Source of the DNA: an uncultured Flavobacteriaceae bacterium
GTDB taxonomy: Bacteria; Bacteroidota; Bacteroidia; Flavobacteriales; Flavobacteriaceae
Reading direction: 5' to 3'
DNA: 64,000 nt
Assembly (NCBI GenBank): GCA_947500445.1
Contig: CANMSB010000025.1
Coordinates: forward strand, 1 to 64,000
The first letter of the stretch is position 1, and the number at the start of each line of letters is the position of its first letter. The notes beneath the pieces are model-generated. The model had not been told where the DNA came from and ran no database searches. It saw only the letters and a program-made list of their open reading frames with translations. Both the position numbers and the translations under genes were made by a program. This document shows positions 608-1,349 of this stretch, one piece after another.

Positions 608-754
608 TAGTAGTTGCAGAACATTCTTTGTTATAAAAAGGATGGCACACAGAGCGTAGGTGACAAACAGTATTGGGCGTTGGATTATATGCTGAGAATT
701 ACCGGGGCAACCCCTTCCGACCTTTTATTTTTCCCGTTGGTCAAAATCAAAAGC

Positions 755-782
755 CCACCTTCCCCTTTCTAGGGAAGGAGCC
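755..782 (+). repeat. Left inverted repeat of the DUF559 cassette
   Basis: CCTTCCC (758-764) and GGGAAGG (772-778) form a small palindrome in a longer asymmetric repeat that ends in GGAGCC. Its reverse complement closely matches the repeat at 1171-1198 on the other side of the DUF559 gene, so the gene sits between two inverted copies. The rest of the 608-801 gap shows nothing recognisable. Confidence 0.75.
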
Positions 783-801
783 TTTAAAAACGTGACCTAC
801 G

Positions 802-1167
802 ATGAGTTACGAAAAGAGACATAACAAAACTGGTTTAAAAAAATATCGTAAGTTGTTGAGAAAGAGGCTAACGCCGGCGGAGGCTTTTTTATGGAAACAC
901 TTGAGCGGTAAAAAACTAGCAGGGCGAAAGTTTAGAAGACAACACAGTATCGATCGATATATAGCTGACTTTTACTGCGCTTCCGAGAAGTTAGTTATCG
1001 AATTGGATGGGCAGGTACATATGAACCCTACTGCGCAAGCATATGATAAAAAAAGAACTGAGCATTTGGAACGTGCTGGTTTGACCGTAATCAGGTTTGA
1101 AAACAAAATGGTTTTTGAAAACTTGACCACTGTTTTAGAAGAGATAACAGCAAATTTCAAAAAATAA
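802..1167 (+). CDS. DUF559 endonuclease-fold protein
   Basis: The protein has 121 residues, typical of free-standing DUF559 proteins, which belong to the PD-(D/E)XK nuclease fold related to very-short-patch-repair endonuclease. The family core is present: a basic N-terminus (KYRKLLRKRLTPAEAFLW), then RKFRRQHSIDRYIADFYC at about 42-59, then LVIELDGQVH at 64-73, with D56, E67 and D69 as likely metal ligands, and a C-terminal VIRFEN strand. The DNA target and biological role of such stand-alone proteins are unknown. The gene is closely bracketed by inverted palindromic repeats (755-782 and 1171-1224), so the unit resembles a small mobile or repeat-associated cassette. The family call is firm; mobility is inference. 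Confidence 0.85.
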   Translation: MSYEKRHNKTGLKKYRKLLRKRLTPAEAFLWKHLSGKKLAGRKFRRQHSIDRYIADFYCASEKLVIELDGQVHMNPTAQAYDKKRTEHLERAGLTVIRFENKMVFENLTTVLEEITANFKK

Positions 1168-1170
1168 TCA

Positions 1171-1224
1171 GGCTCCTTCCCCAAAAAGGGGAAGGTGTCA
1201 TCTAGCGCAGCTCAGATGACGGAT
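1171..1224 (+). repeat. Right inverted repeat of the DUF559 cassette with a second hairpin
   Basis: CCTTCCCC (1175-1182) and GGGGAAGG (1188-1195) form a perfect hairpin. GTCATCT (1196-1202) and AGATGAC (1213-1219) form an adjacent second one. The first part is an inverted near-copy of 755-782. Confidence 0.75.
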
Positions 1225-1309
1225 GGGGTTATACGTTGGGTCATTTCTAAAAAGCTCAAGGCATACCTTTTCTCCTTTAAGGCCTCTTCTTTCGATTGTA
1301 GCTAAAACC

Positions 1310-1342
1310 GAACCTTTTCCCTTTCTAGGAAAGCACTTTAGA
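1310..1342 (+). repeat. Degenerate third copy of the DUF559-flanking palindrome
   Basis: ACCTTTTCCCTTTCTAGGAA followed by AGCACTTTA matches the left repeat (ACCTTCCCCTTTCTAGGGAA, then GGAGCCTTTA) with a few changes and the same orientation. It lies just beyond the stop of the EEP nuclease gene. Confidence 0.5.
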
Positions 1343-1349
1343 TATACGC

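Follow-up and report, generated by a model that had tools for sequence, protein, structure and literature searches.

A DUF559 endonuclease gene capped by triplex-type palindromes: a candidate nuclease-only, homing-like mobile element

Results

Architecture of the locus

The DNA analysed here, called the window throughout, is a 64-kb stretch (64,000 bp) of a contig from an uncultured Flavobacteriaceae bacterium. Toward one end of it lies a small DUF559 endonuclease gene, the sole gene between two palindromic elements (802-1167), and the locus comprises the following features.

709..1230, no strand: whole proposed unit, 522 bp
709..783, minus strand: palindromic element on the left (about 75 bp), paired in inverted orientation with the one on the right, its tail directed outward from the gene
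711..718, minus strand: left tail, GGAAGGGG when read on this strand; it mirrors GGGGAAGG, the 3′ arm of the hairpin, and forms the outer end of the unit
756..780, minus strand: left hairpin 1, CTCCTTCCCTAGAAAGGGGAAGGTG
802..1167, plus strand: DUF559 (PF04480) endonuclease gene, 121 aa
1169..1230, plus strand: right palindromic element, 62 bp, with its tail directed outward from the gene
1175..1195, plus strand: right hairpin 1, CCTTCCCC-AAAAA-GGGGAAGG
1197..1220, plus strand: right hairpin 2 (GTCATCT...AGATGAC), within the loop that separates arm and tail
1221..1228, plus strand: right tail, GGATGGGG; it mirrors GGGGAAGG except for a single A replaced by T, and forms the outer end of the unit
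1316..1333, minus strand: decayed hairpin-like copy, 16/18 identity to 760-777 in the left hairpin

Read as a single strand, each element consists of hairpin 1 (CTCCTTCCCC-loop-GGGGAAGG), the dinucleotide TG, hairpin 2 and a purine tail, and the tails, GGAAGGGG in the left element and GGATGGGG in the right, repeat the 3′ arm of hairpin 1 read backward, without complementing it. An earlier note on this DNA had described inverted near-copies of about 28 bases on either side of the gene, and these are indeed there, as a 28-nt pair at 756-783 and 1170-1197 that is 93% complementary and 386 nt apart. The extents it gave, 755-782 and 1171-1198, had the location right but the length too short, since the purine tail at each end had been overlooked; the real units run from 709 to 783 and from 1169 to 1230. 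The second hairpin that it placed on the right was found at 1197-1220, and the left element has one too. Folded as DNA, the right element scores a z of -4.30 and the left a z of -3.26, each better than 200 of 200 shuffles. The degenerate copy that it saw at 1310-1342 does match the left hairpin at 16 of 18 bases, but its fold is no different from shuffles (z 0.11), it has no mirror tail, and it is probably nonfunctional.

Across the 64-kb window, a generalised hairpin pattern has 2 matches, both at the unit ends, where 0.02 would be expected, and a strict scan for hairpin plus mirror tail returned the same two places only. An Rfam scan of the window gave no match above threshold, and thus the element is not a described RNA family. 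Terminal inverted repeats of the IS/MITE type are present in the window unit, and the copies found inside genes (see below) end with inverted pyrimidine/purine arms. The unit holds no known transposase, DUF559 being its only gene.

The encoded nuclease

The DUF559 identity that had been proposed for the protein proved unambiguous: it matches Pfam PF04480 with an E value of 4.4e-34 and 117 bits, against a cut-off of 20.6, and has the PD-(D/E)XK/Vsr-like core, with conserved residues E27, D56, E67, D69 and H73 of the Vsr/EDxHD-like fold. An AlphaFold2 model of the window protein (pLDDT 92.4) aligns with PDB 3hrl, the DUF559 protein NGO0050 of Neisseria gonorrhoeae, at a TMt of 0.87 and with 3r3p, the homing endonuclease I-Bth0305I, at 0.76, the match to Vsr being weaker; the relationship to I-Bth0305I extends to the sequence level. 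In the same vein, the YcjD profile has been reported to find Vsr at 1e-5 (PMC1189080). A reading as a defense system was rejected because a methyl-directed restriction enzyme profile gave the one match, a weak one (E 7.5e-5), and a reading as a phage region because there were two weak phage matches only. Within the DUF559 literature as represented by titles and abstracts, with subscription papers outside the scope, no link between DUF559 and repeats was found.

The window locus and its genome

The syntenic interval is kept in 8 congeners and the unit is absent from all of them. Seven (L095 and L098-L103, compared with window positions 608-1349) have instead one conserved gene of about 200 aa, which we take from its reading to be DUF1080-like; in G300 that gene is absent too, and a short solo triplex-type element stands in its place. 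By the long-element pattern, the window genome has this pair alone. The idea that it contains many copies was rejected, as its other pattern matches look like A/T-rich chance matches. Its only other DUF559-scoring gene (L002, G000:C2:250205-250333) scores weakly at 25.5 bits and looks like a true Vsr endonuclease, and no such palindromes were found nearby in its surroundings.

Hairpins beside DUF559 genes in other genomes

More than 100 relatives from several bacterial phyla were compared, related loci being sought with the window protein alone as the query. A DUF559 relative is present in 109 of 299 genomes of the family. In a first set of 49 loci, mostly from the family and with 15 from plasmid or phage records of other groups, a pyrimidine-purine hairpin is present in 84 of 98 DUF559 flanks; control flanks have one in 3 of 65 cases and shuffles in 4 of 294. 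For a second set of 74 loci, independent of the first and largely from named Flavobacteriaceae, the figures were 127 of 145 for the DUF559 flanks and 8 of 138 for the controls. The control flanks in these comparisons were taken 700 bp further out, and neither they nor the loci of one family are independent of phylogeny. The association extends to Cyanobacteria, to alpha-, beta- and gamma-proteobacteria and to Deinococcus, with loci in Pseudanabaena, Picosynechococcus, Azospirillum, Shinella, Sinorhizobium (S. meliloti), Novosphingobium, Neisseria gonorrhoeae, E. coli (ycjD) and Photobacterium. The repeats are enriched near DUF559 genes, and no relative was found to carry the gene at the window site without them, the two points on which the earlier note had said that its reading could fail. 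Among 75 loci with a DUF559 gene between such palindromes, 34 genomic-context clusters can be told apart. In 21 of 28 loci, the closest intact elements to the left and right have opposite orientations. Both tails are directed inward, to the gene, in 16 loci and outward in 5, and because the inward direction prevails among the relatives, the exact ends of the unit are not fixed. Downstream of the DUF559 gene at one locus (L016), a TGTCATTCCCGC...GCGGGAAT repeat resembling CGTC-tagged REPs adjoins the DUF559-associated hairpin.

In E. coli, the sapF-fabI interval (L114, L115-L117) holds a multidrug efflux operon in the ycjD-less genomes examined, an operon that has been reported in this interval as eefRABCD (PMC12817139). 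The ycjD locus was considered as a clean empty/filled site and set aside, since with the efflux operon in its place there is no simple empty site.

The mirror tail and its triplex layout

For asymmetric purine arms, the 60 nt following the arm were searched for its mirror, with T accepted for A. In the first set, the mirror was found for 114 of 261 arms, compared with 20 for the direct arm, 9 for the reverse complement and 4.3% for shuffled arms; set-wide, 98 arms had the mirror only and 4 the direct form only. The second set gave 154 of 381 for the mirror versus 19 for the direct arm and 4.0% for shuffled arms. As a tail is expected on just one side of a hairpin, the ceiling for such counts is about half of the arms. 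A first form of the test, with untrimmed arms and approximate matching, found the mirror no better than the direct arm (p = 0.57). This weak result is attributed to the A/T inner pairs and to the mixing of both hairpin directions, and the clear signal to the restriction to the purine core, repeated on an independent set.

To judge by its sequence, the arrangement of arm and mirror tail corresponds in geometry to a purine-motif intrastrand triplex. Such motifs (PIT/TM) have been reported from more than 260 prokaryotes by Holder et al. 2015, who showed that the one from E. coli adopts a triplex structure in vitro and is associated with genome instability, while DMS footprinting of it gave no support for a triplex in vivo (PMC4666352). 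That E. coli motif, CCCTCGCCCCTCTGGGGAGAGGGTTAGGGTGAGGGG, is the element that separates ycjD, itself a DUF559 gene, from fabI. The window element has the three segments of PIT/TM class II, namely the pyrimidine arm, the purine arm (GGGGAAGG) and a purine segment mirroring it in which A may be T. It departs from the class in its second loops, which are 25 and 39 nt long where both loops should be of 1-6 nt; in many relatives the second loop is 3 nt.

Repeat copy number

Copies were counted in the 299 family genomes with a single pattern, which is blind to the short-spacer form. Every one of the 11 genomes with at least 10 net copies is DUF559 positive, against the base rate of 109/299 (Fisher p = 1e-5), and so are 19 of the 21 with at least 6 (Fisher p = 2e-7), both tests ignoring kinship. 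Two genomes with 7 net pattern matches have no DUF559 match, and many DUF559-positive genomes, including that of the window, have few copies; the relation between copy number and DUF559 is one of correlation only. One of the repeat-rich strains is Arenibacter sp. F26102 (G212). In another genome (G176:C10:16548-17528), six copies of the palindrome follow one another at even intervals of some 191 bp, much like a tandem array.

Cassettes inside protein-coding genes

The cassette also occurs in frame within conserved genes, which were named from conserved motifs rather than by profile search. It lies, ends included, inside leuS in 16 genomes, directly before the conserved FTTRPDTIFG motif, and in frame in metH (7 genomes), recG (8) and ileS (1); at the hemC-hemD junction, in 6 genomes, it forms the start of the hemD frame. 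The palindromes inside genes are translated, for example as the peptides PPPKGE and PPLGAGGA, and DUF559 is the only gene of these cassettes. The frame is open throughout the in-gene copies, with no intron or intein seen and no extra domain beyond the roughly 120-150 aa. The catalytic-site residues are invariant, fused copies included, with the exception of G002, and since they are invariant the nuclease is probably still active in the fused copies. One metH frame of 1159 aa (L046, G215:C1:744500-752500) has two DUF559 insertions at different positions.

Filled and empty alleles were found within single genera for recG (G006/G240 and G248/G019), metH (G047/G269) and leuS (G050/G270 and G023/G252). 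No target-site duplication is obvious in these pairs, whose alleles have diverged. DUF559 proteins form clades by site, comprising 8/8 for metH (support 0.98), 6/6 for hemD (0.99), 8/8 for recG (0.84) and 14/16 for leuS (0.86), and the intergenic solo copies of the family group together as well (49/49, 0.83). In recG, the identities of insert and flank are correlated (r = 0.84, largely owing to one outlier), and the presence/absence pattern could in part reflect vertical inheritance with precise loss.

The window genome has a scar-like trace of its own. Its leuS (L270, G000:C5:71281-71991) contains a solo triplex-type end, CCCCTTGGGGGATAGGGGG, in frame and at the exact position of the cassette in the 16 other genomes. 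In G002, the leuS frame (L286) is kept around an eroded DUF559 domain that has lost much of its active site and is, as far as the letters can tell, a decayed nuclease retained as a domain. Together with the in-gene copies and the filled/empty alleles, these two cases look like a cycle of gain, decay and loss. Unrelated palindromes occupy the same leuS position in L272 (G019; AAGATTATTGCCGAAGGCAATAATCTT) and L276 (G248; GTCACCCTGAACGCAGTCGAAGGGTC), as though palindromes in general could enter at this loop.

Discussion

The reading that we favor, and hold to be fairly probable, is that 709-1230 is a minimal nuclease-only, homing-like mobile element with triplex-type ends. It draws on the structure of the unit, the DUF559 association, the presence/absence alleles, the in-frame insertions, the site-specific lineages and the conserved catalytic residues, and on comparison of genomes the unit appears to move. 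The nuclease may drive this movement or recognize the palindromes. A Vsr/I-Bth0305I-like nuclease would nick or cut its target, which may be a palindrome of a similar kind or, in a conserved gene, the empty allele; repair would then copy the palindrome-capped cassette into the break, homing-style; the folded ends might serve as recognition signals, as protection of the cassette ends, or both; and the scattered solo repeats would be deleted, decayed or non-autonomous descendants. We infer in this scheme the nuclease-driven movement, the specificity of cutting, the copying step and a role of the triplex in vivo, and this last is the least certain part of the model, as the triplex of the E. coli motif went undetected in vivo. 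The compact unit that the earlier note envisaged as possibly copied or mobilized is supported as far as comparison carries it, through the 34 context clusters, the in-frame copies and the filled/empty alleles, and its nuclease-driven part is a matter of the scheme above.

Three other explanations should be weighed. The one that fares best, in our opinion unlikely, is that of a pure site-specific homing endonuclease, for which the target site in the host gene alone matters and the palindromes, as stabilizing or read-through ends, take no part in movement. The finding of one DUF559 clade per in-gene site fits this well, as does the fold match to I-Bth0305I, but intergenic copies from many contexts and phyla have ends built in the same way, and in DUF559-positive genomes the solo ends have multiplied. 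From the perspective of DNA repair, the enzyme might instead be a stationary host nuclease that processes hairpin or triplex DNA, with the repeats collecting nearby as its substrate and neither partner mobile. Vsr relatives are repair nickases, and of 5426 E. coli genomes 3363 have ycjD, nearly always as a single copy; a stationary gene does not, however, fit the 34 context clusters among 75 loci or the patchiness across phyla, nor in-frame insertion into unrelated housekeeping genes or congeneric filled/empty alleles, and this explanation seems less likely still. We give least credit to the view that a Y1 (RAYT/IS200-type) transposase mobilizes the palindromes in trans as ordinary REPs, with DUF559 as a passenger. 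REP/RAYT is a known precedent for it, and Y1 transposase genes are present in the window genome. The hairpins of those Y1 genes differ, however (e.g., TTCGCCTTTAGGCGAAGACTTTAG, in forward or reverse form), and because no Y1_Tnp match was found in 5 of the 11 genomes with the most copies, a RAYT is not required; high copy number is predicted by DUF559, and the in-gene cassettes hold no gene besides it.

The homing-like, nuclease-only element may also be one member of something larger. We entertain, tentatively and with rather more doubt than the proposal for the window itself, a new transposase-free class of mobile elements across phyla, made of one Vsr-like DUF559 nuclease and triplex ends, that would home in frame without splicing and seed intergenic sites, and whose non-autonomous descendants would include the PIT/TM repeats of E. 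coli, Neisseria and cyanobacteria and perhaps also RIME and further palindromes with no known mobilizer. Triplex-type and other palindromic repeats are known from hundreds of bacterial genomes, and their way of moving is not known. Two surveys found no dedicated mobility gene, one for triplex motifs, near which mobility functions were never found (PMC4666352), and one for CGTC REPs (PMC3733652). The link to DUF559 suggests that this enzyme could be the missing partner of a puzzling and widespread class of bacterial repeats and supplies a concrete candidate, including ycjD of E. coli K-12 and NGO0050 of N. gonorrhoeae (3hrl). If true, it would account for the nuclease domains lodged in LeuS, MetH, RecG and IleS, show how a gene can enter essential coding regions with no means of splicing, and join repeat biology with homing endonucleases.

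The unit can be set beside several known systems. It is neither a REP/RAYT element nor a known insertion sequence. With REP/RAYT (REPtron) and the CGTC REPs it shares inverted palindromes tagged at one end, the flanking of a gene and dispersal through the genome, but the GTAG tag of REP/RAYT is not at the unit ends, which are GGAAGGGG and GGATGGGG, there is no Y1 transposase, the tail is a mirror repeat, and the gene encodes a PD-(D/E)XK nuclease. Around the DUF559 gene of Shinella (L072), the flanks show a tag, a small hairpin and a large hairpin and are presumably RIME-like, RIME being a repeat of Rhizobiales. A possible DUF559 link of the CGTC REPs and of RIME is a lead; according to Di Nocera et al. 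2013 (PMC3733652), the CGTC-tagged REPs lack a transposase of their own and may be located within genes. The unit resembles PIT/TM (TM-ECO) in its pyrimidine arm, in the hairpin with the purine arm and in a third purine stretch mirroring that arm, and differs in that the published loops are of 1-6 nt (PMC4666352, which makes no mention of DUF559) and the second loop in the window is of 25-39 nt and contains a hairpin.

Rickettsial palindromic elements (RPEs) are short repeats without a gene. Their palindromes lie in frame within protein genes (summarized in PMC3733652), as they do here, with the difference that the insert described here carries a nuclease. Finally, the Vsr-like (EDxHD) homing endonuclease I-Bth0305I (3r3p) is matched in fold and sequence, in the use of one conserved position in conserved genes, in patchiness and in site-specific lineages; as expected of homing elements, a nuclease homologous to 3r3p sits at the same insertion point in leuS, metH and recG, patchily among close relatives. 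The difference is that in these cassettes the nuclease remains part of LeuS, MetH, RecG or IleS, as a domain in frame, and is bounded by palindromic ends.
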